This document shows positions 19,344-52,960 of a stretch of DNA of 64,000 nt, piece after piece. The position numbers and the translations under genes were made by a program. Source of the DNA: Tridacna crocea (lineage: Eukaryota > Mollusca > Bivalvia > Cardiida > Cardiidae); contig OX031063.1 in NCBI GenBank assembly GCA_943736015.1, positions 3,329,001 to 3,393,000 on the forward strand, written 5' to 3'. How positions within the stretch are numbered: the stretch's first letter is position 1; each line of letters starts with the position of its first letter. Below the pieces are notes generated by a model. It searched no databases. It had not been told where the DNA came from and worked only from the letters and a program-made list of their open reading frames with translations.

Positions 19344-19413
19344 GTTATCTGTTCAATAAGACACAAGCAGATTAGCATAAGAATGTACGGAAAAAATGGT
19401 GTTTTGTGACGCT

Positions 19414-28405: not shown

Positions 28406-28633
28406 TTAACCCATTACCACACATTCCCTACTTTTGACGCCCTTGAGAAAGAAGCCTTTAGAAAACATTGTGGGAAAAGGAGAAAATGCTGGTAACCAGC
28501 ATTTTCTCCTTTTCCATCAATGTTTTCTCCCTACACAAAACAAATTTCAAATTTTTAGTCACTTTTATTTTGTCGTCTGCAAATTATTTCAATTTGGGCC
28601 AGTCTTAAATATTGTTGTTTGATAAAGGGTTAA
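28406..28633 (+). mobile_element. TTAA hairpin MITE copy
   Basis: TTAACCCATTACCACACATTC, hairpin with one disrupted pair (CCATCAATG), TTTGTCGTCTGCAAATTA, right end GTTTGATAAAGGGTTAA. Confidence 0.92.
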
Positions 28634-28644
28634 ACTGCTAAGCT

Positions 28645-28929: not shown

Positions 28930-29078
28930 AACTCCAGGCTTGTAGGAGCCTCTTAGCTTTCATGAACTGCCATTGTATACGTTGTCTGCGCATGTCATAT
29001 TCTTCGAAGATCCGGCCTGTCTGCTTTTTCGCATCACCGCTCCCATATGTTAGGGAAAAGTAGGGCTAACACCATAGC
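28930..29078 (+). repeat. Left half of the host repeat split by the palindromic element
   Basis: GTTGTCTGCGCATGTCATAT, TCGAAGATCCGGCC and GGGAAAAGTAGGGCTAAC match uninterrupted copies at 52605-52960 and 63560-63840 in order. The match stops at CATAGC (29073-29078) and resumes at 46874. Confidence 0.85.
29073..29078. other. Target-site duplication CATAGC, left
   Basis: CATAGC immediately precedes the terminal AGTAGTA of the palindromic element and is repeated at 46874-46879. Six bases is the duplication length known for Polinton/Maverick elements. Confidence 0.88.
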
Positions 29079-29269
29079 AGTAGTATAGGCAGCTCTTTAA
29101 ATGTAAACAAAGATTACGTAATCGGTGGTAATCTTGACCTACTTTCGGCCATTGTGTTACTATATTTAGTAACTCATTTGCATATAAGGAATTGTTGATG
29201 TGTCATGGGTATTCGCGGCGGATATGGTGAGTCCGCCATTTTGGATGAGGATCGGCCATATTGGATAAG

Positions 29270-29530
29270 CCATGATGGATTAGGATCAGTATACAGAGCT
29301 GACGTGTATACCTCGTACTGGTAAGTACTCGCGGGCATTGAGGGTCAGGCCCTTTCCTTACCAGACGATAAATAAGTAAATGATTTACCTGCAGTGACCA
29401 GGTCAAAGTATGGATAGGGATCGGTCATGTTGGATCAGTATACAGAATTGACGTGTATACTTCGTTGAGGGTCAGGCCCTTTCCATACAAGACGATAAAT
29501 AAATAAATAAATAAATAAATAAATGTACCT
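29270..29530 (+). repeat. Subterminal direct repeats and AAAT run, left arm
   Basis: GGATCAGTATACAGAGCTGA...GGGTCAGGCCCTTTCC occurs twice, at about 29281-29375 and 29430-29500. The second is followed by an (AAAT)n run. The mirror copy is at 46422-46682. Repeated subterminal blocks are plausible binding sites for replication or integration proteins, but nothing here proves that. Confidence 0.8.
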
Positions 29531-29689
29531 CTCTCCGATGTGCACTCCTCAAGGTCCAACTCTCAAATGAGTCTTTTAGTCCAGAACAGAGTCTAAAGTA
29601 GAATGATGCGCATGCGCGAAGCTATATTTAGATATGTGATCATCAACTATATTTAGAGTCATTACATCAGCTATGATAGGGAAGATCCA

Positions 29690-29915
29690 AACAATGGTCT
29701 TTTGTTAATGAAACCATACTGTCTGGTTTTGTTTATTTGGTGACGGAAGCACGAACAATAGTCTATTCAACTGTCAAAGTTAATCCCCTAACAAAGACCC
29801 AAAAGGCAGAACATTGGTCTTTTGTTAATGTCACCATGCTGGCTGGCTTTGTTTATTTGGTGACGGAAGTACGGACAATGGTCTATTCAACTGTCAAACT
29901 TAATCCCTTTTCAAG
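29690..29915 (+). repeat. Direct repeat of about 120 bp upstream of the promoter, left arm
   Basis: TGGTCTTTTGTTAATG.AACCAT to GTCTATTCAACTGTCAAA appears at about 29694 and again at about 29814. A third partial unit (AATAGCTTATTCAACAAAAG) follows near 29963. Mirrored at 46037-46262. Confidence 0.85.
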
Positions 29916-30021
29916 TCATTAACGTGTCTGGCTTCTGTTGACGTAGGACCGGAAGATCAGACAATAGCTTATTCAACAAAAGGACCTCGACTTTATACCC
30001 CTAAAACGGCTTGAAATTCAG

Positions 30022-30170
30022 CCAATCAGTAATAGGAAATTTTCGACCAATCGGATTACAGGACGCATCGACCAATCAGATTACAGGAAAATGACGTGAT
30101 GCTCAAAAAATAGATCATGATTGTTCTGGGAGAGTATATAAGAAGACGGACAGCTTTGGTTCTTCATTCT
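30022..30170 (+). promoter_or_regulatory. Core promoter of the left polymerase B gene
   Basis: Three CCAAT boxes (30022-30029, 30047-30054, 30072-30079), a CRE-like TGACGTGA (30092-30099), a TATA box TATATAAG (30135-30142) and an initiator-like TTCATTCT whose A at 30166 lies 31 bp downstream of the TATA. It is a complete host-type RNA polymerase II promoter. It places transcription after the first ATG of the open frame and so favours the ATG at 30195 as the start. Confidence 0.8.
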
Positions 30171-30194
30171 AACTTCAGAATTACAACTGACATC

Positions 30195-33100
30195 ATGGAA
30201 CACACCCTGGAAATGATGGTGAATGCTTTCACCGAAGCGGAAGACCTGATGACCTTTGCGGTAGCATGGGATATACAAGAATCCCCCGTGGTCAGATCCC
30301 GACTTTATCAATTGAGAAACCGAGAGATTGTAAACCACGTGGTCAACACAGAATTAACAGACGAGATGGAAGACAACTTGGAGTTGGCCCTGGAGTACGT
30401 GAGAGAGCAAGAGGAGATAGAGGGGGCCGTCAAAGCCCTGCTCTTTGACGACGAAATGGAGGCCCTTGCCCAAACCTGCATTGACGATGGAGAGTGGAAT
30501 CCCCCGAGTCCAGTACAAGAAGGTAGGGGAGATGAACCACAACCCGGACCATCGCATCAACTACAGTATACTATGAAGAAAACCTCACAACGCACTTACG
30601 CAAAGAATGCAGCTACAGATCGAACATACAAGGTGAAAATAGATGAAAAGTACAATGGACAGCAACTCAAAGACGTGAGAGAGGGTCTCCATGATATGAT
30701 GCATGACGTATTGAACCAGGCCCGGGGGAATTTAGCGGGAAACGATTTAGGGCGTGTGGTGGTACACCATGACGGATTGCACGACGCTGTCGTCGTCCCA
30801 CTTCAGGCCTGGGACCAACTGGACGCAACCAAAGTAATGGAGACCCTGCAAAAGGTACTCAACAGCAACGAGAAACTCTCCATCAATGAAAGTTTCTCCA
30901 TTACTATAGGCACCATTGACTTACCGAAAGGGGGAACCAGACGACGAATCACCAACCTAAAAGGTGAGAAGAAGAACTCACTAAAGCTCAAAACCTCAAT
31001 TGTAACCATAGACAATAATGACTACATATGTATGGCGAGAGCGATTGGCGTGAGCTGGGCCAAGTTAAAGAGATGTACACCAGAAGAATGGGAGGAGGTG
31101 GTCAGGAACAGGCAGGGAAAAAGCAACCTGCAACTAGTACTGAAACATCAGAAAGTTCCCTTGACCTACTATCAGGATCTTTGCAACAAAAACCTAAAAC
31201 AGCAGAAACATTTAGCAGTAAACTTATGTCAGATGGCAGGTGTTCCCCAAGACAGGCCGGCGAGTCTCAACGATGTAGAAGCGTTTGAAGAACTCCTGGG
31301 GGTGCGCGTGATGGTGGTCAGTGCACGATTGGGTAACAAGTTCATCACCAGTCCGAGTAGTGACGAACGTCCCTGTATCTACCTGTACCTGGTGGACGAT
31401 GATCACTTTCACGCCATCACCAGCATCACGGGGTTCTTCAGCGCCAATTATTTCTGCGAGAAATGCCTGTACCATTATGATCACCGAGAAAGACACGAAT
31501 GTGACACCAGCTGTATCGTGTGCAAGAAGGCCCATTGCCCAAAGACCGAACTGACCCGAACCTGCACGGACTGCAACATGACGTGTCGATCGGATGACTG
31601 TTACAAAAAGCATAAAGAAGTACCCCTACACAAAAAGGGCAAGAAGAAGGGCCAACCTAGCGGATCTTCCCAGTGTCAAAAGTATTGGAAATGTCCCACC
31701 TGTTATAAAGTTGTGAGACTGGACCAGAGGAAGAAAGAAGACCATGAATGTGGAGAATATTGGTGCTCCACATGTACTAAATACGTTATGGACGATCACC
31801 AATGTTACTTAAGAGCGACACCAGCAAAAGAACATTATATTCCAAAGTTTATATTTTTTGATTTTGAATGTTCCCAAGATGAAATTACCTATTGTGATGA
31901 AGGATATGTACCCGATTCTAAATTAAATTGTAAGGACTGTCAAGCACCTGAGGTATGTAAATCTTGCTCCAAATGTCAAAATTGTAAAACGTCATGGTGC
32001 GGTAAAGCGACCCACCGTCCAAATTTTGTCGTAGCGCATTCCGTATGCCCAAAATGCATTGACGAAGAACTGAAACCCGATTCTGTATGTAAGGGTTGCG
32101 GTACCCGTTGCGACGAATGTGACAACACTGATCTGTACGAGAACGAGGACGAAGGTCCTTGTCCCGGTAAATGCGGATTCAGAGAAGTCATATTCGAGGG
32201 AACAGATACCGCCGAAAAGTTTGGACAGTGGCTCTTTACGGACCAGCACGAATATTTCAAGGTCGTTGCCCATAACTTGAAAGGCTACGATGGCTATTTT
32301 CTTCTGGAATATTTAATTGATCAATCGATAAGACCGGACAAAATCATTTATAACGGTTCAAAAATCATGTATATGACAGTGGAGAAAGGTTTACATATGA
32401 GAGTGATTGACAGTCTCAATTTCTTACCCATGAAATTATCGCAATTACCTAAAGCATTTGGTTTACACGAATTGAAAAAAGGGTGGTTCCCGCATTATTT
32501 TAATACTAGAGAGAATCAAAATTATGTTGGAGCCTATCCTGATGCTAAAGATTATGGTTACGATTTCATGAGTGAGAAAGAAAGAAGTGAGTTAGTAGCG
32601 TGGTTGAGTGAGAGAGAAAATGAAATATTTGATTTTAGAAAAGAAATGTTAGAATACTGTAGAAGTGATGTAGATATTTTAAGAAAAGCTTGTATGAAAT
32701 TCAGACATTTATTAATGAGTGCTACGGGGGAAGAGATAGAGGTTGTCAATGAGACAGGAGAGGTAGAAAAGAAATGGGTGAGGGCTGTGGATCCCTTCGA
32801 CTCGGTCACCATCGCTTCTGTATGCATGAATGTCTTCCGGACAAAGTTCTTGGAAGAAGAATGGAGAGTACAGATGCATGGTAGTGGAGACAAATGGATC
32901 CAGGCTAGAATGAGAGACGGCACATTGTATGTATGTTTGGAGGGTGAATGGGTGAGTGAGGAACAGTTGAAAATTACAGCGAGTGAATTTATTAGGTCAC
33001 CGATAGCAAAAATACCTCCCGGTGGATATAGGGATCAATATAGTCAAGCGTCAATTCAGTGGTTAGAGTGGAGGGCATGTTTAGACAAAGTACACATTCA

Positions 33101-34790
33101 ACATGCGTTAAATGAAGGGGAAAAGACGATCCCTGGAACTCGATACAAGTTGGATGGGTACTGCGTAGAAACACACACGGCATATGAATATCACGGCTGC
33201 GTGTTTCACGGATGCCCTGTGTGTTTCTCAGATAATCGAGAAGAAACGTGTCATCCCCTAACCCACCAGTCACTGGATGAATTGTATGCCTTGACTATAA
33301 AAAAGAAAGCATATTTAGAACAATTAGGCATGAACTACGTGTGCATTTGGGACCATGAATTTCAAAAGGAACGAAATCAAAATACAGAACTGAGAACCTT
33401 CATTAAGCAGTTAGACATGACAGAGAGATTGGACCCTAGAGAGAGCTTCTTCGGCGGGCGTACCAATGCGAGTCAACTCTACCGTAAAACGGAAGAACAG
33501 GAAAGGATCATGTACGTGGATTTCACGAGTTTGTATCCTTGGGTGAATAAGTATTGTCGGTATCCCGTGGGTCACCCGAAAATCTTGACCAAAGATTTTG
33601 GGAACATAGAGGAGTATTTTGGTATTGCTAAGGTCAAGGTCTTACCTCCGAGAGGACTGTATCATCCAGTCCTCCCGTACAGATCAAATGACAAACTAAA
33701 ATTCCCATTATGCAGGACCTGTGCGGATACCGAGAATCCTGACACCTGCACCTGTTCGGATGAAGAGAGAGTATTGACAGGTACATGGTGCACCCCGGAG
33801 ATACACAAGGCTCTTAGACTAGGGTACCAGGTTATAACTATATACGAAATATACCACTGGGAAGAAACAACACAATATGACCCCGATTCCGGAGAAGGAG
33901 GACTGTTTGCCAAATACATCAATACCTTTTTGAAGTACAAACAAGAGGCGAGTGGTCCTCCGGACTGGATTCGGGATGCACAAGACATGCACACTTACAT
34001 ACAAGACTATGCACAAAAAGAGGGGGTTTCATTGGATCGAGAGAATATTGTGAAGAACCCAGGATTGAGAGCCCTAGCCAAACTATGTCTCAATAGCTTT
34101 TGGGGCAAGTTTGGACAGAGGCTCAATATGCGTCAGACAGAAATCTTTACGGATAGTCAGGTCAACCTGTTCTTTCAACTATTCTCAGATCCCTTAAAAC
34201 AACCTCTCAACTTTCACATATTAACGGACGACATGATACAAATTGAATGGCTATACAAACAGGACTGCCAACCGGAAGACAACAACACAAACATATACTT
34301 GGCGACCTTCACAACGTGCTGGGCCAGACTCAAATTGTACAGTGTGCTCGAACAATTAGACAGACGAGTACTGTATTACGATACAGATAGCGTCATTTAC
34401 CTGAGTAGACCTGGAGAGGTAGACCCACCCTTAGGGGACTACTTGGGCGAATTGACCGATGAATTGGAGAAGGAGGAGCACATTGTAGAATTTGTGTCTG
34501 GCGGTCCCAAGAACTACGCATACAAAACAAACACCAACAAAGAAACGTGTAAAGTCAGAGGATTCACACTGCACTACACCAACTCACAACTCATCAATTT
34601 TGAAAGCGTCAAACATATCGTTATAGACACACACGGCACCTCACACATCACTGTCACAAACCCAAGCAAAATATGTAGAGACAAAGGTAAACGAAAATTA
34701 TACAACAGAGCAGAAGAAAAAAGATATCAAATGGTATACACCAAACGTAGAAGAATAGAGAACTATGACACAGTACCTTACGGATATTAG
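30195..34790 (+). CDS. Protein-primed family B DNA polymerase (Polinton pPolB), left arm
   Basis: Replicates the linear element from protein-bound ends. The frame opens at 30117, but that ATG lies upstream of the TATA box. The ATG at 30195 (A at -3, G at +4) is preferred, giving 1,531 aa. Numbering from 30117: a conserved N-terminal block at about 300-420; cysteine/histidine-rich putative zinc modules at about 450-570; exonuclease motifs FFDFEC (D582, E584), HNLKGYD (719-725) and YCRSDVD (847-853); further Cys clusters at about 600-690 between Exo I and Exo II; a restriction-endonuclease-like insert with DGYCVET and HGCVFHGC at about 1005-1095; polymerase motif A DFTSLYP (D1135), motif B KLCLNSFWGKFG (1322-1333) and motif C YDTDS (D1422, D1424); a basic tail. 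All catalytic residues are present and there is no stop or frameshift, so it could be active. It faces the second copy tail to tail. Confidence 0.96.
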   Translation: MEHTLEMMVNAFTEAEDLMTFAVAWDIQESPVVRSRLYQLRNREIVNHVVNTELTDEMEDNLELALEYVREQEEIEGAVKALLFDDEMEALAQTCIDDGEWNPPSPVQEGRGDEPQPGPSHQLQYTMKKTSQRTYAKNAATDRTYKVKIDEKYNGQQLKDVREGLHDMMHDVLNQARGNLAGNDLGRVVVHHDGLHDAVVVPLQAWDQLDATKVMETLQKVLNSNEKLSINESFSITIGTIDLPKGGTRRRITNLKGEKKNSLKLKTSIVTIDNNDYICMARAIGVSWAKLKRCTPEEWEEVVRNRQGKSNLQLVLKHQKVPLTYYQDLCNKNLKQQKHLAVNLCQMAGVPQDRPASLNDVEAFEELLGVRVMVVSARLGNKFITSPSSDERPCIYLYLVDDDHFHAITSITGFFSANYFCEKCLYHYDHRERHECDTSCIVCKKAHCPKTELTRTCTDCNMTCRSDDCYKKHKEVPLHKKGKKKGQPSGSSQCQKYWKCPTCYKVVRLDQRKKEDHECGEYWCSTCTKYVMDDHQCYLRATPAKEHYIPKFIFFDFECSQDEITYCDEGYVPDSKLNCKDCQAPEVCKSCSKCQNCKTSWCGKATHRPNFVVAHSVCPKCIDEELKPDSVCKGCGTRCDECDNTDLYENEDEGPCPGKCGFREVIFEGTDTAEKFGQWLFTDQHEYFKVVAHNLKGYDGYFLLEYLIDQSIRPDKIIYNGSKIMYMTVEKGLHMRVIDSLNFLPMKLSQLPKAFGLHELKKGWFPHYFNTRENQNYVGAYPDAKDYGYDFMSEKERSELVAWLSERENEIFDFRKEMLEYCRSDVDILRKACMKFRHLLMSATGEEIEVVNETGEVEKKWVRAVDPFDSVTIASVCMNVFRTKFLEEEWRVQMHGSGDKWIQARMRDGTLYVCLEGEWVSEEQLKITASEFIRSPIAKIPPGGYRDQYSQASIQWLEWRACLDKVHIQHALNEGEKTIPGTRYKLDGYCVETHTAYEYHGCVFHGCPVCFSDNREETCHPLTHQSLDELYALTIKKKAYLEQLGMNYVCIWDHEFQKERNQNTELRTFIKQLDMTERLDPRESFFGGRTNASQLYRKTEEQERIMYVDFTSLYPWVNKYCRYPVGHPKILTKDFGNIEEYFGIAKVKVLPPRGLYHPVLPYRSNDKLKFPLCRTCADTENPDTCTCSDEERVLTGTWCTPEIHKALRLGYQVITIYEIYHWEETTQYDPDSGEGGLFAKYINTFLKYKQEASGPPDWIRDAQDMHTYIQDYAQKEGVSLDRENIVKNPGLRALAKLCLNSFWGKFGQRLNMRQTEIFTDSQVNLFFQLFSDPLKQPLNFHILTDDMIQIEWLYKQDCQPEDNNTNIYLATFTTCWARLKLYSVLEQLDRRVLYYDTDSVIYLSRPGEVDPPLGDYLGELTDELEKEEHIVEFVSGGPKNYAYKTNTNKETCKVRGFTLHYTNSQLINFESVKHIVIDTHGTSHITVTNPSKICRDKGKRKLYNRAEEKRYQMVYTKRRRIENYDTVPYGY

Positions 34791-34803
34791 AATAGAGAGA
34801 ATG

Positions 34804-35880
34804 GTGTGAGAATGAATGTAATTGAAATATTGATGTTACTGGAAGCAAAATTGCATGTTACTGGATGTAAAAATCAATGTTACTGGAAGTAAATTTGCAT
34901 GTTACTGGATGTAAAAATCAATGTTATTGGAAGTAAATTTTGATGTTACTGGAAGTAAATTTTGATGTTATTGGAAGCAAATTTGCATGTTACTGGAACC
35001 TATTTTTGCAATTTTACATTGAAATATATAGGGAAAATTGGATTCATTTTTTGATGTTACTGGAAGCAAAATTTCGTGTTACTGGATATAAAAATCAATG
35101 TTACTGGAAGTAAATTTGCATGTTACTGGATGTAAAAATCAATGTTATTGGAAGTAAATTCTGATGTTACTGGAAGTAAAATTTAATGTTATTGGAAGCA
35201 AAATTGCATGTTACTGGAACCAATTTTTGCAATTTTACATAGAAATATATAGGGAAAATTGGATTCATTTTTTGATGTTACTGGAAGCAAATTTGCGTGT
35301 TACTGGATGTAAAATTCACTGTTATTGGAAGTAAATTTTGATGCTACTGGAAGTAAAAATCAGTGTTATTGGAAGTAAATTTTGATGTTACTGGAAGTAA
35401 AATTCAATGTTATTGGAAGCAAAATTGCATGTTACTGGAACCTATTTTTGCAATTTTACATAGAAATATATAGGGAAATTTGGATTGATTTTTTGATGTT
35501 ACTGGAAGCAAAATTGCGTGTTACTGGATGTAAAAATCAATGTTACTGGAAGTAAATTTGCATGTTACTGGATGTAAAAATCAATGTTATTGGAAGTAAA
35601 TTTTGATGTTACTGGAAGTAAAATTTAATGTTATTGGAAGCAAATTTGCATGTTACTGGAACCTATTTTTGCAATTTTACATTGAAATATATAGGGAAAA
35701 TTGGATTCATTTTTTGATGTTACTGGAAGCAAATTTGCATGTTACTGGATGTAAAAATCAATGTTACTGGAAGTAAATTTTAATGTTATTGGAAGCAAAT
35801 TTTGATGTTACTGGAAGCAAATTTTGATGTTATTGGAAGTAACTTTTGATGTTATTTGAAGTAAATTTTGACGTTAGATC
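34804..35880 (+). repeat. Minisatellite of GTTACTGGAAGTAAA units, left arm
   Basis: About fifty short units of about 21 bp (TGTTACTGGAAGTAAATTTT, TGTTACTGGATGTAAAAATC, TGTTATTGGAAGCAAA) are organised in a higher-order period of about 225 bp. The higher-order unit is marked by four copies of GCAATTTTACATWGAAATAT at about 35006, 35229, 35450 and 35670. It starts right after the polymerase stop codon and lacks coding frames. Mirrored at 40072-41148. Confidence 0.92.
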
Positions 35881-35934
35881 TCTTGTATATTATTTGCTGA
35901 TGCGTTGTATATTGTTTCATTTATAACTGAAATG

Positions 35935-35940
35935 AATAAA
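35935..35940 (+). terminator. Poly(A) signal AATAAA, left arm
   Basis: AATAAA follows the minisatellite, about 1.1 kb after the polymerase stop and 60 bp before the next ORF. It would put the minisatellite in the 3' UTR of the polymerase transcript. Mirror copy at 40012-40017. Confidence 0.5.
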
Positions 35941-36000
35941 AGAATGTAGGAATGACAATGTCTGTTGTACTTTTTTCCGTTGCCCTTATTCGTAAGAATT

Positions 36001-36273
36001 ATGAATGACCTGGAATCCCCTAACCGTGAACGGGGTAGTTTTATTCCTATTCCTAAACCAGAAGACTGTAATCAATCCGATCAATGGCATTTATTGGGTA
36101 CACAAGTTCCTAAAACTGAAATCGTGTACTTCTGTCAAATGATCATTGTCTATATTATAATCATCACTTCCGTAGTCAATTTGTCTATACAAAATGGTTC
36201 TACCGAATTGTGGATAAGTTCACTCAGCAGTTGTATCGGTTACGCCTTGCCTAACCCGAAGCTCAAAAAATAA
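36001..36273 (+). CDS. Small membrane protein, left arm
   Basis: 90 aa from the ATG at 36001 (an in-frame ATG at 35965 would add 12 hydrophobic residues). Hydrophilic N-terminus rich in N, E and P, then a strong membrane segment at about residues 42-62 (IVYFCQMIIVYIIIITSVV), then a second, weaker hydrophobic stretch ending SSCIGYALPNPKLKK. The stop codon is one base before the ATPase ATG, so the two are probably co-expressed. Small hydrophobic ORFs beside the packaging ATPase are known in Polinton and adintovirus-like elements. A virion or membrane role is inference. Confidence 0.6.
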   Translation: MNDLESPNRERGSFIPIPKPEDCNQSDQWHLLGTQVPKTEIVYFCQMIIVYIIIITSVVNLSIQNGSTELWISSLSSCIGYALPNPKLKK

Positions 36274-36274
36274 A

Positions 36275-36445
36275 ATGGTAGTCCTCCCCTTCGAACCTAG
36301 CTCCAGTTTTTGTATTAGCGGTCAAACGGGATCAGGGAAAACACAATGGGTCTATCGATTCCTCAAACACATCAAACACATGTACAGTAGAGATCCTCCT
36401 GTTCATATCCTCTTCTGCTATGGCACTCACCTACCATTATTTTGA
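36275..36445 (+). pseudogene. Truncated FtsK/HerA-type packaging ATPase, left arm
   Basis: Starts ATG one base after the preceding stop. Residues 15-23 read SGQTGSGKT, a Walker A motif (K22, T23) preceded by a beta-strand-like FCI. The frame ends at TGA 36443-36445 after 56 aa, and the next codon is also a stop. The same frame then reads plausibly for about ten codons before running into the 120-bp tandem array. Walker B, sensor and arginine-finger parts are absent. The usual family member is several times longer, so this is a fragment that cannot package DNA alone. Confidence 0.8.
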
Positions 36446-36489
36446 TGAATGGAACAACACATACCTCAGTTTACGGGTGAAAGCGAACA

Positions 36490-36955
36490 AATCAAGTCGT
36501 CCCCCTGTAAAGCAATTGATTAAATGACTCTAACAGGATTGGACAAGACACCAACCCTTTAATGCCCAGTACCCATTTATATCATTGATTATAACGCAAA
36601 AGCGAAAAATCAAGTTATTCCCCTTTAGATTAAAAGTTAAATGACTCTAACAATATTGAAAATAAATCCCTACTCTTTTAAGGTCCACTACCCATTTATA
36701 CCATTGATTATGATGTAAAAGGGAAAAAAAATCAAGTCACCTCCCTTTAAAGCAAGAAATTAAATTATTCTACAAGATTGGACAAGACCCTCCCACCCCT
36801 TTAAGGTCGAGTACCCACATATATGAATACCATTGATTACAATGCAAAAGCAAAAAAATCAAGTCGTCCCACTCTAAGCCAGTAGATTCAATGACTCTAA
36901 CAAGATTGGACAAGACCCTCATCCCTTTAAAGTCCAGTGCCCATTGATAAGTCAA
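36490..36955 (+). repeat. Tandem array, about 120-bp unit, four copies, left arm
   Basis: Units begin AATCAAGTCGTCCC (about 36490, 36609, 36730, 36858) and include AATGACTCTAACAAGATTGG and CCCTTTAA.GTCCAGTACCC. The array replaces the rest of the ATPase gene. The 82-aa frame at 36770-37018 on the minus strand is array sequence. Mirror at 38997-39462. Confidence 0.85.
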
Positions 36956-37857
36956 TGTTTTTTGACTTGAGATCGGATTAAGATAACTTATAAAGGGAGC
37001 TGGCCAATGTTTACACAAACATTTATAATAACCCTAGTAACGGATTAAATTTTGCAAAAATGTAAGATTTTAGTCGAGAGTTATAGGAGTTGTTTCCTTC
37101 AGCAATTAAATGATTTTTTTTTTCTCAACATTGCAACCTTGTAGAAAGTAAAACCGTGTACTGATAAACCTAATTCTAGGAAATGTAAGCAATGGCACCC
37201 ATTTCTAAGACAACCAAGCAAATAAAGCCATAGTCATCGTATTCTTTCATGTTGTGACAGTTTAATGGAATTTGAGATAATCCAACCAAATGATACCTGA
37301 CCTATTACTCTTTTACTTTGACTCCCCTCATTGTCTTTCAATTTCCCGGCGTTTCAGGCTCAATACTCATTTACTTGGAAATATCGACTTCTTTATTTGC
37401 TGTCAGATCGAATCGACATAGGTATCATTGGAATGGCCTTGTCACACTGTTGAAGAAAATGTATAGTTTTGTGGGTGTCACTTGAATGACAACGGATATA
37501 CAAGGGTTAAAGTTTTGGGAGATACACGCTTTTGGCATCCACAGGCACCAAAATGACTCAAATCTGTATTAAATGACCGATTATTACGTTCTTGGTGTCT
37601 ATCCACGATAACTTTTACCAAGAAATTCAAATTTGAAGTCATAATTTACCTAAAAATTATAGCAAAATCTTAGGTTTGCCTGAAAGATTTCAGATACGTT
37701 ATTAATGCACTAACTTTAACAAAAAATAGCCAAAATCGTTGTTTATGAACCGATTTTCGTGACCTTGGTGTCTAATTGTATTAACTTTTACTCAGAATTC
37801 CATTTATGGGGGTAACGAATACATTGTGTTGAGATAATGGTAAAAAATGACTCCTTA
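36956..37857. other. Unidentified non-coding inner arm, left
   Basis: About 900 bp without open frames over 60 codons or a recognisable domain. It may be decayed element sequence. Mirrored at 38095-38996. Confidence 0.5.
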
Positions 37858-38006
37858 ATAAACGACTGTCAGATTAGGGTATAAAAATATACGGAATGTA
37901 CCACTGAGAAGAAACCATTCAGTATGACTCTACAAACGGGCGAAGGGACCAGTCGCAAAATACATAAATACCTTTCTAAACTTTGAACAAGAGGCGACTG
38001 GTCCCC
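37858..38006 (+). pseudogene. Diverged polymerase B fragment at the axis of the palindrome
   Basis: The interval aligns with codons about 1230-1285 of the intact polymerase genes: AATATACGGAATGTACCACT against ATATACGAAATATACCACT, and ATACATAAATACCTTTCT through AACAAGAGGCGACTGGTCC. Identity looks like roughly 75-80 percent, with an early stop and small gaps, so it comes from a related but different element. Homology on the right ends where GCGACTGGTCC begins the mirrored arm. Confidence 0.85.
37944..38002. other. Central stem-loop: 37-nt loop with 11-bp inverted repeat
   Basis: GGACCAGTCGC (37944-37954) and GCGACTGGTCC (37992-38002) flank the unpaired 37 nt at 37955-37991, which are polymerase-derived. 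This is the geometry expected of a strand that folded back on a short inverted repeat and was extended. Confidence 0.85.
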
Positions 38007-38094
38007 CTCGCCCGTTTGTAGAGTCATACTCAATGGTTTCCTCTCAGTGGTACATTCCGTATATTTTTATACCCTAATCTGACAGTCGTTTATT

Positions 38095-38996
38095 AAGGAG
38101 TCATTTTTTACCATTATCTCAACACAATGTATTCGTTACCCCCATAAATGGAATTCTGAGTAAAAGTTAATACAATTAGACACCAAGGTCACGAAAATCG
38201 GTTCATAAACAACGATTTTGGCTATTTTTTGTTAAAGTTAGTGCATTAATAACGTATCTGAAATCTTTCAGGCAAACCTAAGATTTTGCTATAATTTTTA
38301 GGTAAATTATGACTTCAAATTTGAATTTCTTGGTAAAAGTTATCGTGGATAGACACCAAGAACGTAATAATCGGTCATTTAATACAGATTTGAGTCATTT
38401 TGGTGCCTGTGGATGCCAAAAGCGTGTATCTCCCAAAACTTTAACCCTTGTATATCCGTTGTCATTCAAGTGACACCCACAAAACTATACATTTTCTTCA
38501 ACAGTGTGACAAGGCCATTCCAATGATACCTATGTCGATTCGATCTGACAGCAAATAAAGAAGTCGATATTTCCAAGTAAATGAGTATTGAGCCTGAAAC
38601 GCCGGGAAATTGAAAGACAATGAGGGGAGTCAAAGTAAAAGAGTAATAGGTCAGGTATCATTTGGTTGGATTATCTCAAATTCCATTAAACTGTCACAAC
38701 ATGAAAGAATACGATGACTATGGCTTTATTTGCTTGGTTGTCTTAGAAATGGGTGCCATTGCTTACATTTCCTAGAATTAGGTTTATCAGTACACGGTTT
38801 TACTTTCTACAAGGTTGCAATGTTGAGAAAAAAAAAAATCATTTAATTGCTGAAGGAAACAACTCCTATAACTCTCGACTAAAATCTTACATTTTTGCAA
38901 AATTTAATCCGTTACTAGGGTTATTATAAATGTTTGTGTAAACATTGGCCAGCTCCCTTTATAAGTTATCTTAATCCGATCTCAAGTCAAAAAACA
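38095..38996. other. Unidentified non-coding inner arm, right
   Basis: Mirror of 36956-37857, with no coding frame or domain seen. Confidence 0.5.
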
Positions 38997-39462
38997 TTGA
39001 CTTATCAATGGGCACTGGACTTTAAAGGGATGAGGGTCTTGTCCAATCTTGTTAGAGTCATTGAATCTACTGGCTTAGAGTGGGACGACTTGATTTTTTT
39101 GCTTTTGCATTGTAATCAATGGTATTCATATATGTGGGTACTCGACCTTAAAGGGGTGGGAGGGTCTTGTCCAATCTTGTAGAATAATTTAATTTCTTGC
39201 TTTAAAGGGAGGTGACTTGATTTTTTTTCCCTTTTACATCATAATCAATGGTATAAATGGGTAGTGGACCTTAAAAGAGTAGGGATTTATTTTCAATATT
39301 GTTAGAGTCATTTAACTTTTAATCTAAAGGGGAATAACTTGATTTTTCGCTTTTGCGTTATAATCAATGATATAAATGGGTACTGGGCATTAAAGGGTTG
39401 GTGTCTTGTCCAATCCTGTTAGAGTCATTTAATCAATTGCTTTACAGGGGGACGACTTGATT
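38997..39462 (-). repeat. Tandem array, about 120-bp unit, right arm
   Basis: Reverse complement of the array at 36490-36955. The 82-aa frame at 38934-39182 is a by-product. Confidence 0.85.
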
Positions 39463-39506
39463 TGTTCGCTTTCACCCGTAAACTGAGGTATGTGTTGTTC
39501 CATTCA

Positions 39507-39677
39507 TCAAAATAATGGTAGGTGAGTGCCATAGCAGAAGAGGATATGAACAGGAGGATCTCTACTGTACATGTGTTTGATGTGTTTGAGGAATCGATAG
39601 ACCCATTGTGTTTTCCCTGATCCCGTTTGACCGCTAATACAAAAACTGGAGCTAGGTTCGAAGGGGAGGACTACCAT
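39507..39677 (-). pseudogene. Truncated FtsK/HerA-type packaging ATPase, right arm
   Basis: Mirror copy of the 56-aa Walker A fragment with the same tandem stop codons. Both copies share the lesion, so the gene was broken before the arms became duplicates, or was equalised afterwards. Confidence 0.8.
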
Positions 39678-39678
39678 T

Positions 39679-39951
39679 TTATTTTTTGAGCTTCGGGTTA
39701 GGCAAGGCGTAACCGATACAACTGCTGAGTGAACTTATCCACAATTCGGTAGAACCATTTTGTATAGACAAATTGACTACGGAAGTGATGATTATAATAT
39801 AGACAATGATCATTTGACAGAAGTACACGATTTCAGTTTTAGGAACTTGTGTACCCAATAAATGCCATTGATCGGATTGATTACAGTCTTCTGGTTTAGG
39901 AATAGGAATAAAACTACCCCGTTCACGGTTAGGGGATTCCAGGTCATTCAT
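39679..39951 (-). CDS. Small membrane protein, right arm
   Basis: Identical in sequence to the left-arm protein (90 aa, one strong membrane segment, GYALPNPKLKK tail). Same one-base gap to the ATPase fragment. Confidence 0.6.
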   Translation of the reverse strand: MNDLESPNRERGSFIPIPKPEDCNQSDQWHLLGTQVPKTEIVYFCQMIIVYIIIITSVVNLSIQNGSTELWISSLSSCIGYALPNPKLKK

Positions 39952-40011
39952 AATTCTTACGAATAAGGGCAACGGAAAAAAGTACAACAGACATTGTCAT
40001 TCCTACATTCT

Positions 40012-40017
40012 TTTATT
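40012..40017 (-). terminator. Poly(A) signal AATAAA, right arm
   Basis: Minus-strand AATAAA, mirror of 35935-35940, downstream of the right polymerase gene and its minisatellite. Confidence 0.5.
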
Positions 40018-40071
40018 CATTTCAGTTATAAATGAAACAATATACAACGCATCAGCAAATAATATACAAGA

Positions 40072-41148
40072 GATCTAACGTCAAAATTTACTTCAAATAA
40101 CATCAAAAGTTACTTCCAATAACATCAAAATTTGCTTCCAGTAACATCAAAATTTGCTTCCAATAACATTAAAATTTACTTCCAGTAACATTGATTTTTA
40201 CATCCAGTAACATGCAAATTTGCTTCCAGTAACATCAAAAAATGAATCCAATTTTCCCTATATATTTCAATGTAAAATTGCAAAAATAGGTTCCAGTAAC
40301 ATGCAAATTTGCTTCCAATAACATTAAATTTTACTTCCAGTAACATCAAAATTTACTTCCAATAACATTGATTTTTACATCCAGTAACATGCAAATTTAC
40401 TTCCAGTAACATTGATTTTTACATCCAGTAACACGCAATTTTGCTTCCAGTAACATCAAAAAATCAATCCAAATTTCCCTATATATTTCTATGTAAAATT
40501 GCAAAAATAGGTTCCAGTAACATGCAATTTTGCTTCCAATAACATTGAATTTTACTTCCAGTAACATCAAAATTTACTTCCAATAACACTGATTTTTACT
40601 TCCAGTAGCATCAAAATTTACTTCCAATAACAGTGAATTTTACATCCAGTAACACGCAAATTTGCTTCCAGTAACATCAAAAAATGAATCCAATTTTCCC
40701 TATATATTTCTATGTAAAATTGCAAAAATTGGTTCCAGTAACATGCAATTTTGCTTCCAATAACATTAAATTTTACTTCCAGTAACATCAGAATTTACTT
40801 CCAATAACATTGATTTTTACATCCAGTAACATGCAAATTTACTTCCAGTAACATTGATTTTTATATCCAGTAACACGAAATTTTGCTTCCAGTAACATCA
40901 AAAAATGAATCCAATTTTCCCTATATATTTCAATGTAAAATTGCAAAAATAGGTTCCAGTAACATGCAAATTTGCTTCCAATAACATCAAAATTTACTTC
41001 CAGTAACATCAAAATTTACTTCCAATAACATTGATTTTTACATCCAGTAACATGCAAATTTACTTCCAGTAACATTGATTTTTACATCCAGTAACATGCA
41101 ATTTTGCTTCCAGTAACATCAATATTTCAATTACATTCATTCTCACAC
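40072..41148 (-). repeat. Minisatellite of GTTACTGGAAGTAAA units, right arm
   Basis: Reverse complement of 34804-35880 with the same number and order of units in every part compared. That is unusual for a fast-changing array and indicates very recent arm duplication or continuing equalisation. Confidence 0.92.
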
Positions 41149-41161
41149 CATTCTCTCTATT

Positions 41162-44100
41162 CTAATATCCGTAAGGTACTGTGTCATAGTTCTCTATTCT
41201 TCTACGTTTGGTGTATACCATTTGATATCTTTTTTCTTCTGCTCTGTTGTATAATTTTCGTTTACCTTTGTCTCTACATATTTTGCTTGGGTTTGTGACA
41301 GTGATGTGTGAGGTGCCGTGTGTGTCTGTAACGATATGTTTGACGCTTTCAAAATTGATGAGTTGTGAGTTGGTGTAGTGCAGTGTGAATCCTCTGACTT
41401 TACACGTTTCTTTGTTGGTGTTTGTTTTGTATGCGTAGTTCTTGGGACCGCCAGACACAAATTCTACAATGTGCTCCTCCTTCTCCAATTCATCGGTCAA
41501 TTCGCCCAAGTAGTCCCCTAAGGGTGGGTCTACCTCTCCAGGTCTACTCAGGTAAATGACGCTATCTGTATCGTAATACAGTACTCGTCTGTCTAATTGT
41601 TCGAGCACACTGTACAATTTGAGTCTGGCCCAGCACGTTGTGAAGGTCGCCAAGTATATGTTTGTGTTGTTGTCTTCCGGTTGGCAGTCCTGTTTGTATA
41701 GCCATTCAATTTGTATCATGTCGTCCGTTAATATGTGAAAGTTGAGAGGTTGTTTTAAGGGATCTGAGAATAGTTGAAAGAACAGGTTGACCTGACTATC
41801 CGTAAAGATTTCTGTCTGACGCATATTGAGCCTCTGTCCAAACTTGCCCCAAAAGCTATTGAGACATAGTTTGGCTAGGGCTCTCAATCCTGGGTTCTTC
41901 ACAATATTCTCTCGATCCAATGAAACCCCCTCTTTTTGTGCATAGTCTTGTATGTAAGTGTGCATGTCTTGTGCATCCCGAATCCAGTCCGGAGGACCAC
42001 TCGCCTCTTGTTTGTACTTCAAAAAGGTATTGATGTATTTGGCAAACAGTCCTCCTTCTCCGGAATCGGGGTCATATTGTGTTGTTTCTTCCCAGTGGTA
42101 TATTTCGTATATAGTTATAACCTGGTACCCTAGTCTAAGAGCCTTGTGTATCTCCGGGGTGCACCATGTACCTGTCAATACTCTCTCTTCATCCGAACAG
42201 GTGCAGGTGTCAGGATTCTCGGTATCCGCACAGGTCCTGCATAATGGGAATTTTAGTTTGTCATTTGATCTGTACGGGAGGACTGGATGATACAGTCCTC
42301 TCGGGGGTAAGACCTTGACCTTAGCAATACCAAAATACTCCTCTATGTTCCCAAAATCTTTGGTCAAGATTTTCGGGTGACCCACGGGATACCGACAATA
42401 CTTATTCACCCAAGGATACAAACTCGTGAAATCCACGTACATGATCCTTTCCTGTTCTTCCGTTTTACGGTAGAGTTGACTCGCATTGGTACGCCCGCCG
42501 AAGAAGCTCTCTCTAGGGTCCAATCTCTCTGTCATGTCTAACTGCTTAATGAAGGTTCTCAGTTCTGTATTTTGATTTCGTTCCTTTTGAAATTCATGGT
42601 CCCAAATGCACACGTAGTTCATGCCTAATTGTTCTAAATATGCTTTCTTTTTTATAGTCAAGGCATACAATTCATCCAGTGACTGGTGGGTTAGGGTATG
42701 ACACGTTTCTTCTCGATTATCTGAGAAACACACAGGGCATCCGTGAAACACGCAGCCGTGATATTCATATGCCGTGTGTGTTTCTACGCAGTACCCATCC
42801 AACTTGTATCGAGTTCCAGGGATCGTCTTTTCCCCTTCATTTAACGCATGTTGAATGTGTACTTTGTCTAAACATGCCCTCCACTCTAACCACTGAATTG
42901 ACGCTTGACTATATTGATCCCTATATCCACCGGGAGGTATTTTTGCTATCGGTGACCTAATAAATTCACTCGCTGTAATTTTCAACTGTTCCTCACTCAC
43001 CCATTCACCCTCCAAACATACATACAATGTGCCGTCTCTCATTCTAGCCTGGATCCATTTGTCTCCACTACCATGCATCTGTACTCTCCATTCTTCTTCC
43101 AAGAACTTTGTCCGGAAGACATTCATGCATACAGAAGCGATGGTGACCGAGTCGAAGGGATCCACAGCCCTCACCCATTTCTTTTCTACCTCTCCTGTCT
43201 CATTGACAACCTCTATCTCTTCCCCCGTAGCACTCATTAATAAATGTCTGAATTTCATACAAGCTTTTCTTAAAATATCTACATCACTTCTACAGTATTC
43301 TAACATTTCTTTTCTAAAATCAAATATTTCATTTTCTCTCTCACTCAACCACGCTACTAACTCACTTCTTTCTTTCTCACTCATGAAATCGTAACCATAA
43401 TCTTTAGCATCAGGATAGGCTCCAACATAATTTTGATTCTCTCTAGTATTAAAATAATGCGGGAACCACCCTTTTTTCAATTCGTGTAAACCAAATGCTT
43501 TAGGTAATTGCGATAATTTCATGGGTAAGAAATTGAGACTGTCAATCACTCTCATATGTAAACCTTTCTCCACTGTCATATACATGATTTTTGAACCGTT
43601 ATAAATGATTTTGTCCGGTCTTATCGATTGATCAATTAAATATTCCAGAAGAAAATAGCCATCGTAGCCTTTCAAGTTATGGGCAACGACCTTGAAATAT
43701 TCGTGCTGGTCCGTAAAGAGCCACTGTCCAAACTTTTCGGCGGTATCTGTTCCCTCGAATATGACTTCTCTGAATCCGCATTTACCGGGACAAGGACCTT
43801 CGTCCTCGTTCTCGTACAGATCAGTGTTGTCACATTCGTCGCAACGGGTACCGCAACCCTTACATACAGAATCGGGTTTCAGTTCTTCGTCAATGCATTT
43901 TGGGCATACGGAATGCGCTACGACAAAATTTGGACGGTGGGTCGCTTTACCGCACCATGACGTTTTACAATTTTGACATTTGGAGCAAGATTTACATACC
44001 TCAGGTGCTTGACAGTCCTTACAATTTAATTTAGAATCGGGTACATATCCTTCATCACAATAGGTAATTTCATCTTGGGAACATTCAAAATCAAAAAATA

Positions 44101-45757
44101 TAAACTTTGGAATATAATGTTCTTTTGCTGGTGTCGCTCTTAAGTAACATTGGTGATCGTCCATAACGTATTTAGTACATGTGGAGCACCAATATTCTCC
44201 ACATTCATGGTCTTCTTTCTTCCTCTGGTCCAGTCTCACAACTTTATAACAGGTGGGACATTTCCAATACTTTTGACACTGGGAAGATCCGCTAGGTTGG
44301 CCCTTCTTCTTGCCCTTTTTGTGTAGGGGTACTTCTTTATGCTTTTTGTAACAGTCATCCGATCGACACGTCATGTTGCAGTCCGTGCAGGTTCGGGTCA
44401 GTTCGGTCTTTGGGCAATGGGCCTTCTTGCACACGATACAGCTGGTGTCACATTCGTGTCTTTCTCGGTGATCATAATGGTACAGGCATTTCTCGCAGAA
44501 ATAATTGGCGCTGAAGAACCCCGTGATGCTGGTGATGGCGTGAAAGTGATCATCGTCCACCAGGTACAGGTAGATACAGGGACGTTCGTCACTACTCGGA
44601 CTGGTGATGAACTTGTTACCCAATCGTGCACTGACCACCATCACGCGCACCCCCAGGAGTTCTTCAAACGCTTCTACATCGTTGAGACTCGCCGGCCTGT
44701 CTTGGGGAACACCTGCCATCTGACATAAGTTTACTGCTAAATGTTTCTGCTGTTTTAGGTTTTTGTTGCAAAGATCCTGATAGTAGGTCAAGGGAACTTT
44801 CTGATGTTTCAGTACTAGTTGCAGGTTGCTTTTTCCCTGCCTGTTCCTGACCACCTCCTCCCATTCTTCTGGTGTACATCTCTTTAACTTGGCCCAGCTC
44901 ACGCCAATCGCTCTCGCCATACATATGTAGTCATTATTGTCTATGGTTACAATTGAGGTTTTGAGCTTTAGTGAGTTCTTCTTCTCACCTTTTAGGTTGG
45001 TGATTCGTCGTCTGGTTCCCCCTTTCGGTAAGTCAATGGTGCCTATAGTAATGGAGAAACTTTCATTGATGGAGAGTTTCTCGTTGCTGTTGAGTACCTT
45101 TTGCAGGGTCTCCATTACTTTGGTTGCGTCCAGTTGGTCCCAGGCCTGAAGTGGGACGACGACAGCGTCGTGCAATCCGTCATGGTGTACCACCACACGC
45201 CCTAAATCGTTTCCCGCTAAATTCCCCCGGGCCTGGTTCAATACGTCATGCATCATATCATGGAGACCCTCTCTCACGTCTTTGAGTTGCTGTCCATTGT
45301 ACTTTTCATCTATTTTCACCTTGTATGTTCGATCTGTAGCTGCATTCTTTGCGTAAGTGCGTTGTGAGGTTTTCTTCATAGTATACTGTAGTTGATGCGA
45401 TGGTCCGGGTTGTGGTTCATCTCCCCTACCTTCTTGTACTGGACTCGGGGGATTCCACTCTCCATCGTCAATGCAGGTTTGGGCAAGGGCCTCCATTTCG
45501 TCGTCAAAGAGCAGGGCTTTGACGGCCCCCTCTATCTCCTCTTGCTCTCTCACGTACTCCAGGGCCAACTCCAAGTTGTCTTCCATCTCGTCTGTTAATT
45601 CTGTGTTGACCACGTGGTTTACAATCTCTCGGTTTCTCAATTGATAAAGTCGGGATCTGACCACGGGGGATTCTTGTATATCCCATGCTACCGCAAAGGT
45701 CATCAGGTCTTCCGCTTCGGTGAAAGCATTCACCATCATTTCCAGGGTGTGTTCCAT
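41162..45757 (-). CDS. Protein-primed family B DNA polymerase (Polinton pPolB), right arm
   Basis: Mirror copy of the left-arm gene on the minus strand. Preferred start ATG at 45757, with the open frame reaching 45835. All exonuclease and polymerase motifs match the left copy. Only two residues differ over 1,557: proline to threonine at about 1047 (left CHPLTHQ, right CHTLTHQ), and isoleucine to threonine at about 1503 (left HIVIDTHG, right HIVTDTHG). Both frames are intact, so either copy could supply the polymerase. Confidence 0.96.
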   Translation of the reverse strand: MEHTLEMMVNAFTEAEDLMTFAVAWDIQESPVVRSRLYQLRNREIVNHVVNTELTDEMEDNLELALEYVREQEEIEGAVKALLFDDEMEALAQTCIDDGEWNPPSPVQEGRGDEPQPGPSHQLQYTMKKTSQRTYAKNAATDRTYKVKIDEKYNGQQLKDVREGLHDMMHDVLNQARGNLAGNDLGRVVVHHDGLHDAVVVPLQAWDQLDATKVMETLQKVLNSNEKLSINESFSITIGTIDLPKGGTRRRITNLKGEKKNSLKLKTSIVTIDNNDYICMARAIGVSWAKLKRCTPEEWEEVVRNRQGKSNLQLVLKHQKVPLTYYQDLCNKNLKQQKHLAVNLCQMAGVPQDRPASLNDVEAFEELLGVRVMVVSARLGNKFITSPSSDERPCIYLYLVDDDHFHAITSITGFFSANYFCEKCLYHYDHRERHECDTSCIVCKKAHCPKTELTRTCTDCNMTCRSDDCYKKHKEVPLHKKGKKKGQPSGSSQCQKYWKCPTCYKVVRLDQRKKEDHECGEYWCSTCTKYVMDDHQCYLRATPAKEHYIPKFIFFDFECSQDEITYCDEGYVPDSKLNCKDCQAPEVCKSCSKCQNCKTSWCGKATHRPNFVVAHSVCPKCIDEELKPDSVCKGCGTRCDECDNTDLYENEDEGPCPGKCGFREVIFEGTDTAEKFGQWLFTDQHEYFKVVAHNLKGYDGYFLLEYLIDQSIRPDKIIYNGSKIMYMTVEKGLHMRVIDSLNFLPMKLSQLPKAFGLHELKKGWFPHYFNTRENQNYVGAYPDAKDYGYDFMSEKERSELVAWLSERENEIFDFRKEMLEYCRSDVDILRKACMKFRHLLMSATGEEIEVVNETGEVEKKWVRAVDPFDSVTIASVCMNVFRTKFLEEEWRVQMHGSGDKWIQARMRDGTLYVCLEGEWVSEEQLKITASEFIRSPIAKIPPGGYRDQYSQASIQWLEWRACLDKVHIQHALNEGEKTIPGTRYKLDGYCVETHTAYEYHGCVFHGCPVCFSDNREETCHTLTHQSLDELYALTIKKKAYLEQLGMNYVCIWDHEFQKERNQNTELRTFIKQLDMTERLDPRESFFGGRTNASQLYRKTEEQERIMYVDFTSLYPWVNKYCRYPVGHPKILTKDFGNIEEYFGIAKVKVLPPRGLYHPVLPYRSNDKLKFPLCRTCADTENPDTCTCSDEERVLTGTWCTPEIHKALRLGYQVITIYEIYHWEETTQYDPDSGEGGLFAKYINTFLKYKQEASGPPDWIRDAQDMHTYIQDYAQKEGVSLDRENIVKNPGLRALAKLCLNSFWGKFGQRLNMRQTEIFTDSQVNLFFQLFSDPLKQPLNFHILTDDMIQIEWLYKQDCQPEDNNTNIYLATFTTCWARLKLYSVLEQLDRRVLYYDTDSVIYLSRPGEVDPPLGDYLGELTDELEKEEHIVEFVSGGPKNYAYKTNTNKETCKVRGFTLHYTNSQLINFESVKHIVTDTHGTSHITVTNPSKICRDKGKRKLYNRAEEKRYQMVYTKRRRIENYDTVPYGY

Positions 45758-45781
45758 GATGTCAGTTGTAATTCTGAAGTT

Positions 45782-45930
45782 AGAATGAAGAACCAAAGCT
45801 GTCCGTCTTCTTATATACTCTCCCAGAACAATCATGATCTATTTTTTGAGCATCACGTCATTTTCCTGTAATCTGATTGGTCGATGCGTCCTGTAATCCG
45901 ATTGGTCGAAAATTTCCTATTACTGATTGG
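45782..45930 (-). promoter_or_regulatory. Core promoter of the right polymerase B gene
   Basis: Mirror of 30022-30170: initiator, TATATAAG, CRE-like TCACGTCA and three CCAAT boxes (seen as ATTGG on the plus strand) in the same spacing. Confidence 0.8.
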
Positions 45931-46036
45931 CTGAATTTCAAGCCGTTTTAGGGGTATAAAGTCGAGGTCCTTTTGTTGAATAAGCTATTGTCTGATCTTC
46001 CGGTCCTACGTCAACAGAAGCCAGACACGTTAATGA

Positions 46037-46262
46037 CTTGAAAAGGGATTAAGTTTGACAGTTGAATAGACCATTGTCCGTACTTCCGTCACCAAATAAA
46101 CAAAGCCAGCCAGCATGGTGACATTAACAAAAGACCAATGTTCTGCCTTTTGGGTCTTTGTTAGGGGATTAACTTTGACAGTTGAATAGACTATTGTTCG
46201 TGCTTCCGTCACCAAATAAACAAAACCAGACAGTATGGTTTCATTAACAAAAGACCATTGTT
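46037..46262 (-). repeat. Direct repeat of about 120 bp, right arm
   Basis: Mirror of 29690-29915. Confidence 0.85.
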
Positions 46263-46421
46263 TGGATCTTCCCTATCATAGCTGATGTAATGACTCTAAA
46301 TATAGTTGATGATCACATATCTAAATATAGCTTCGCGCATGCGCATCATTCTACTTTAGACTCTGTTCTGGACTAAAAGACTCATTTGAGAGTTGGACCT
46401 TGAGGAGTGCACATCGGAGAG

Positions 46422-46682
46422 AGGTACATTTATTTATTTATTTATTTATTTATTTATCGTCTTGTATGGAAAGGGCCTGACCCTCAACGAAGTATACACG
46501 TCAATTCTGTATACTGATCCAACATGACCGATCCCTATCCATACTTTGACCTGGTCACTGCAGGTAAATCATTTACTTATTTATCGTCTGGTAAGGAAAG
46601 GGCCTGACCCTCAATGCCCGCGAGTACTTACCAGTACGAGGTATACACGTCAGCTCTGTATACTGATCCTAATCCATCATGG
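46422..46682 (-). repeat. Subterminal direct repeats and ATTT run, right arm
   Basis: Mirror of 29270-29530, including the (ATTT)n run at about 46430-46460. Confidence 0.8.
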
Positions 46683-46873
46683 CTTATCCAATATGGCCGA
46701 TCCTCATCCAAAATGGCGGACTCACCATATCCGCCGCGAATACCCATGACACATCAACAATTCCTTATATGCAAATGAGTTACTAAATATAGTAACACAA
46801 TGGCCGAAAGTAGGTCAAGATTACCACCGATTACGTAATCTTTGTTTACATTTAAAGAGCTGCTGTTACTACT

Positions 46874-46879
46874 CATAGC
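46874..46879. other. Target-site duplication CATAGC, right
   Basis: Second copy of the 6-bp duplication, directly after the TACTACT terminus. It is followed by host-repeat sequence that continues the left flank. Confidence 0.88.
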
Positions 46880-47110
46880 TATTACTCAAGCCTGTTGGGC
46901 TGTTGTAACTATATGGCCGATGATATAGGTTACATGCTAGCTCATCATAGCTGAATGAGGTAGCGTTTTATTGAGTAAACGTTTATTTTAGTCTGAAATT
47001 CAAACTTAACGGTTGTCGCGTAGAAAAGTAGTCCGGTTCTGTACCCAGAATGCCCAAATTAGATAGATGTGTATTTGTAGAATGCCATCTAGCGGAAGAT
47101 AATGCGATCG
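46874..47110 (+). repeat. Right half of the split host repeat
   Basis: ACTCAAGCCTGTTGGGCTG, TAGGTTACATGCTAGCT, GGTTGTCGCGTAGAAAAGTA and AGATAGATGTGTATTTGTAG match 52730-52945 in order. Together with 28930-29078 this forms one complete repeat copy. Confidence 0.85.
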
Positions 47111-52589: not shown

Positions 52590-52960
52590 CGCACAGTATC
52601 AACTTTTCTCGCGTTGTCTGCTCACGTCATATTCTTCAAGATTCGACCTTTCGGCTGTGACGTACCACTCATCCCCGTATACCTGGGAAAAGTAGGGCTC
52701 ATACCGAAGCTATCAGCCCATTACCCAAGCCTGTAGGGGCTGTTTTAATAAATGGCCGATGCATAGGTCACATGCTAGCCGATCATACCTGCATAGATTG
52801 CACAGGGTAGCGTTTTATTTAGTAAATGTTTATTTCATTTTGAAATTCAAAGTAACGGTTGTCGCGTAGAAAAGTAGTCCGGTTCTCTACCCAGAATGCC
52901 CGAATTAGATAGATGTGTATTTGTAGAATGCCGTCTAGTGGGAGATATTGATTTTTCTCA
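52590..52960 (+). repeat. Uninterrupted copy of the host repeat targeted by the palindrome
   Basis: GTTGTCTGCTCACGTCATAT, GGGAAAAGTAGGGCTCATAC, GAAGCTATCAGCCCATTACC and GTTGTCGCGTAGAAAAGTAG run without a break. It provides the empty-site counterpart of 29073/46879. A stray fragment of the family is at 53250-53290 in reverse. Confidence 0.82.

Follow-up and report, generated by a model that had tools for sequence, protein, structure and literature searches.

The DNA analyzed here, referred to as the window, is a 64,000-nucleotide stretch of the Tridacna crocea genome, and it contains an element of the Maverick/Polinton type whose two halves are almost exact inverted copies of each other (Table 1). 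Comparison of the window with its own reverse by BLAST returned a single inverted match over 29079-46873, with 99.742% identity in 17,800 columns, 36 mismatches, and 10 gap openings; the element is 17,795 bp long, with arms of 8,898 bases each. An earlier note on this DNA had reported an inverted repeat over the same interval, which is borne out by both self-BLAST and an arm-versus-arm alignment. Its description of the element as perfectly symmetric holds for the near-complete pairing (99.74%) and is otherwise a slight overstatement, given a 37-nt unpaired loop, a 3-bp mismatch near the tip, and 25 differing columns in the global alignment of the arms. Sixteen of these columns fall at the axis, spanning 37943-37976, the last of them being the center base set against its own complement, and three adjacent columns form a single block directly inside the 7-bp tip (29086-29088 versus 46864-46866). 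The other six lie between 29089 and 37930 and consist of five substitutions (33255, 33647, 34624, 37910, and 37920) and one indel, at 37113, within a T run. The longest exact inverted run, of 4,166 bp (29089-33254), begins right after the tip block. In the host flanks, the longest inverted pair is 232 nt among the ungapped pairs of at least 150 nt that were listed (25 of the 44 for one flank and all seven for the other). Chance does not account for the giant repeat.

Table 1. Features of the palindromic element and its insertion site, numbered from the first base of the window.
Feature	Position	Strand	Basis or remark
Interrupted host repeat, left half	28980..29072	+	BLAST; further copies at 52.6 and 63.6 kb
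Target-site duplication CATAGC, left copy	29073..29078	+	Sequence
Left arm of palindrome	29079..37976	+	Self-BLAST, arm-versus-arm alignment
Left tip AGTAGTA	29079..29085	+	Alignment; bases 8-10 (29086-29088) differ between arms
PolB-family (protein-primed type) DNA polymerase, intact, 1,557 aa, left arm	30117..34790	+	ORF; PF03175, E 2.4e-48
221-bp tandem array, 4.7 copies	34830..35868; mirror 40084-41122	+	Repeat scan
Conserved hydrophobic ORF of 90 aa, uninterrupted in each arm	36001..36273; mirror 39679-39951	+	ORF, homologues
Probable packaging ATPase start, broken and truncated	36275..36445	+	56 codons, then a stop; Walker A motif GQTGSGKT
119-bp degenerate tandem array	36480..36943	+	Begins the arm section without a recognized Maverick gene
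DNA without assigned identity, ~0.9 kb	36944..37861	+	No BLAST match in host part of window; ORF scan
Second PolB fragment, diverged and decayed, across axis	37862..38008	+	tblastn, alignment
Innermost 12-bp stem, left half	37945..37956	+	Sequence stands in place of family-invariant Leu-Phe
Axis loop, 37 nt	37957..37993	+	Sequence, fold prediction
Right arm of palindrome	37976..46873	-	Self-BLAST, arm-versus-arm alignment
Innermost 12-bp stem, right half	37994..38005	+	Native PolB-like sequence
PolB-family polymerase, intact, right arm	41162..45835	-	ORF; arm alignment
Right tip TACTACT (minus strand AGTAGTA)	46867..46873	-	Alignment
Target-site duplication CATAGC, right copy	46874..46879	+	Sequence
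Interrupted host repeat, right half	46880..47104	+	BLAST; further copies at 52.6 and 63.6 kb

The outermost ~1 kb of each arm lacks a long open reading frame (ORF) and is followed by the gene for a PolB-family DNA polymerase, which would be of the protein-primed type judging by its family membership. This polymerase has 42 homologues at E<=1e-20, and its named relatives come from Ruditapes, Mya, Solemya, and Crassostrea/Magallana. The two copies differ at three bases, which account for the substitutions P1047T and I1503T and one synonymous change. For P1047T it is the right arm that carries the derived state, proline being present in all 17 aligned polymerase rows; at I1503T, seven of the 17 rows have threonine and one is gapped. 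A partial polymerase that is 73% identical (P0017) is catalogued under a bacterial MAG (Sedimenticola) and is probably host contamination in a bivalve symbiont assembly.

Between the polymerase and the probable ATPase lies the 90-aa ORF, which has 102 homologues (best identity 94%), with 24 invariant columns in the 30 aligned; it belongs to no Pfam family, and comparison with PHROGs gave nothing below E 0.3. The 56-codon fragment that follows is the probable start of a packaging ATPase. Every one of its 21 Pfam matches, mostly to P-loop families, is below the curated cut-off, and the name is therefore based on motif and position. Comparison of the ATPase with the read-through tails of two homologues gave weak or empty results (E 4.6, no match, and E 0.034), too little to place an ATPase directly behind the 90-aa gene in relatives. 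Farther inward, the last ~1.4 kb of the arm contains no recognized Maverick gene and gave no BLAST hit to the host DNA of the window; its composition is host-like, but as that of the 221-bp array inside the arm is equally so, composition is not decisive for a host origin.

The element resembles Maverick/Polinton elements (polintovirus, adintovirus-type) in its PolB-family polymerase, (AGT)2 tips, 6-bp duplication, terminal inverted repeats (TIRs), and length of ~17 kb (PMC8097293), and the Maverick/Polinton identity given in the earlier note fits this anatomy, here in the form of a defective derivative. Outside the polymerase span, no stop-to-stop ORF in the arm exceeds 105 aa, and none of the 13 short peptides scanned, which are a subset of the short ORFs, had a Pfam match to an integrase, capsid, or protease. 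Neither the retrovirus-like integrase nor the capsid proteins and protease of an autonomous Maverick/Polinton were found in the ORF list or with Pfam. Sub-cut-off Pfam matches on short ORFs were rejected as noise, an example being a TcdA1 domain in an alternative frame (E 0.0039, 17.8 bits versus a cut-off of 27). Because Maverick ends, duplication, and polymerase are present while integrase, capsid, and protease are missing from these searches, the element is classed as a defective derivative of a Maverick/Polinton that is not autonomous. Unlike a typical member of the group, it has a polymerase at both ends, it shows no intact ORF for an integrase, capsid, or protease, and its ATPase is cut short.

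The ends carry the repeated motif AGTAGT...ACTACT, and CATAGC stands on each side as the 6-bp target-site duplication expected of an autonomous Maverick/Polinton; the TIR is likewise present, but it covers the entire element. Vertebrate Mavericks are described as having the end motifs (AGT)2//(ACT)2 or (AG)3//(CT)3 and 6-bp duplications, with TIRs of 46-1,447 bp, unlike the 8.9-kb arms found here, and their repeated end motifs have been connected with jumping-back during protein-primed replication (PMC8097293). Of the flanking host DNA, 28980-29073 on the left aligns with 52612-52705, and 46881-47104 on the right with 52720-52950; when the flanks are joined, the alignment crosses the junction onto 63568-63818, with 66.8% identity over 289 columns. 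The termini AGTAGTA/TACTACT, the flanking CATAGC, and the origin of the outer flanks from neighboring parts of one host repeat, all of which had been proposed earlier, are confirmed by the sequence, the arm alignment, and the matches at 52.6 and 63.6 kb. The paralogous copies of this repeat have small indels directly beside the target site, which hide the exact pre-insertion sequence. Neither host flank mirrors the other.

One target duplication, together with flanks that reconstitute a host repeat when joined, favors a single integration event. Two independent insertions in opposed orientation would leave two target duplications and are rejected, as is chromosomal breakage-fusion, which would have mirrored the flanking DNA; a chromosomal fold-back is disfavored because the host flank would be mirrored in that case too. 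That the symmetry breaks off exactly where the transposon tips end, without entering the host DNA, argues that the molecule was palindromic before it integrated. This had been suggested in the earlier note, and it fits an anatomy of tip-limited symmetry and non-mirrored flanks; the order of the events is one that we infer. The same evidence bears on a possible artefact of assembly or library preparation, in which a read fold-back or a mis-resolved inverted repeat would have given an ordinary or truncated Maverick a spurious second arm. A fold-back artefact would indeed look like a giant inverted repeat of nearly identical arms around a short loop, the divergence of the arms is very low, and the small number of arm differences could be sequencing errors. 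However, a folded read mirrors its own flank, whereas the flanks here differ, rejoin into a host repeat, and are accompanied by a single 6-bp duplication; that an artefact would invent a matching target duplication together with different flanks is unlikely. Considering also the five substitutions, one indel, and 3-bp block that separate the arms, and the templated change in the axis stem (PV for invariant LF, described below), we regard an artefact as quite unlikely.

The axis of the palindrome lies in the second PolB fragment, which matches residues ~1240-1282 of the intact polymerase by tblastn. Both arms of this fragment have a stop where 17 aligned polymerases have Trp (15/17) or Phe (2/17), and since the stop is shared, the fragment was probably already a fossil before mirroring took place. 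Within it, the left half of the innermost stem encodes Pro-Val in place of Leu1263-Phe1264, which are invariant in all 17 aligned polymerases, and agrees base for base with the reverse complement of the right half, 37 nt downstream. This replacement of invariant residues, combined with exact complementarity, is the expected trace of copying across a hairpin, a fold-back signature that was absent from the earlier note. As single-stranded DNA, the 201-nt axis region has a predicted fold of -87.6 kcal/mol (z -21.8). The structure of the axis also has to be weighed against a later conversion in the chromosome, in which an asymmetric Maverick would have been inserted and break repair through its inverted tips would have overwritten the right arm with the left. 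Gene conversion is favored by inverted repeats, and the identity of the decayed PolB and ATPase pieces between arms is a further outcome that conversion would predict. Yet copying from the tip would have had to end precisely at a small-loop fold-back in the middle of the element, with loss of the whole other half, and two mechanisms would have to be combined, whereas one suffices if a free linear molecule folded back on itself. Conversion therefore seems to us decidedly improbable.

Mavericks are thought to replicate as linear, protein-capped DNA. Against this background, the palindrome probably originated by the snap-back of a one-ended Maverick molecule, which was copied into a palindrome and integrated in trans at one site. 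The starting point would have been a protein-capped linear molecule derived from a Maverick, of which only the polymerase end was left and whose other end lay in DNA with an old PolB fossil. Replication from the sole remaining terminal origin would have displaced a strand that could snap back by means of a few complementary bases within the fossil, and the polymerase would have extended this hairpin as far as the protein-capped 5' tip. The following round of replication would then have opened the hairpin, yielding a palindrome of normal Maverick length with two ends and two working origins. Finally, an integrase provided in trans may have inserted the palindrome at one site, with duplication of CATAGC.

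Several features favor this snap-back route. The axis falls within a PolB fragment and has a templated stem, the tips match the vertebrate Maverick end motif that has been linked to jumping-back (PMC8097293), and PolB is intact in both arms. Outside the tip and axis, the arms differ only by the five substitutions and one indel, among which at least P1047T is derived in the right arm. Counted against it are the 3-bp block near the tip and the fact that the evidence for the palindrome comes from a single locus in one assembly. Head-to-head end joining of two one-ended Maverick fragments before integration would likewise yield two tips and one target duplication; two molecules broken at almost the same base are less likely than self-copying, however, and joining would not produce the templated stem, which leaves this alternative very improbable.

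The length of the palindrome is also informative. Intact vertebrate Mavericks measure 16,862 +/- 1,678 bp, a narrow size range that has been taken as a sign of constrained genome size, and Maverick particles were, according to the same account, so far unobserved (PMC8097293). The palindrome is 0.56 standard deviations above this mean and, by analogy, would fit a particle. It is conceivable, though in our estimate unlikely, that the palindromic Maverick is a satellite form and not a dead end, with a polymerase of its own and with packaging and integration provided by a full Maverick. Such a satellite, equipped with two polymerase genes and two origins, would be comparable to a defective-interfering genome that became fixed in the germline; in that case, selection on replication alone would explain why both arms retain an intact PolB and 90-aa ORF next to a broken ATPase.

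The SYREC symmetric recombinants of adenovirus 12 are reportedly palindromes with one viral terminus at both ends and cell DNA in the middle, and they are said to depend on protein-primed replication and to be near virion length. Measured against this definition, the element described here similarly has one terminus at both ends; as for replication and packaging with the aid of a helper, what agrees is its length, which falls in the packaging range. Unlike SYREC molecules, which are virion DNAs from cell culture, it is an integrated, germline-type Maverick copy. Its middle, at most a candidate for captured cell DNA, consists of the inner 1.4 kb, for which BLAST gave no hit to the host DNA of the window, and the decayed PolB. 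The likeness to symmetric defective genomes of protein-primed replicons that was drawn in the earlier note fits in these respects. DNA from adenovirus incomplete particles carries long inverted terminal repeats. In this protein-primed virus, the defective DNA is enriched for the left end (PMC5033970, PMC12090768); unlike the present element, it is not integrated and has neither transposon ends nor a target duplication. Chromosomal fold-back inverted duplications are described as having a short-stem, small-loop axis that arises from a self-priming strand, which the axis of the element resembles, although those duplications reach into chromosome arms and the mirror here ends at the transposon tips (PMC3907307, PMC10622511). 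Teratorn differs in being a herpesvirus-piggyBac fusion with a unique region between its repeats and a different polymerase and transposase (PMC6431247). A literature search of titles and abstract openings, with subscription papers mostly outside its scope, found no description of a symmetric Polinton, in agreement with the earlier note, which knew of none. Scans of viral and prokaryote contig collections yielded no related loci with useful context; a distant locus in the viral collection (L001, 24% identity) had no inverted repeat by minus-strand self-BLAST.

Symmetry that ends exactly at the tips is difficult to produce unless integration was preceded by a free linear molecule that had been replicated all the way to its tip. 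If this interpretation is correct, the element provides sequence evidence for an extrachromosomal Maverick stage and for integration in trans, as well as for adenovirus-like defective genomes among Mavericks, and it would constitute a natural record of how Mavericks replicate and become defective. Genome-length inverted repeats with a short-stem axis offer a signature by which long-read genomes can be searched.

The host DNA of the window has features of its own. A dispersed repeat of ~230 bp with an internal hairpin (foldback-type; e.g., 28406-28636) is present in more than 25 copies in both orientations, and the segment 57001-58000 is low-complexity, purine-rich DNA with extreme strand asymmetry (GC skew 0.707, AT skew 0.347). 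A host gene resembling FMRFamide receptors, with at least two exons, lies on the minus strand at 17621-19352. Its matches, which together with those of the polymerase point to a bivalve host, probably a heterodont, reach up to 79%, the best named ones being from Mactra antiquata (68%) and Mercenaria mercenaria (67%), and two further partial matches are at 95-96%.
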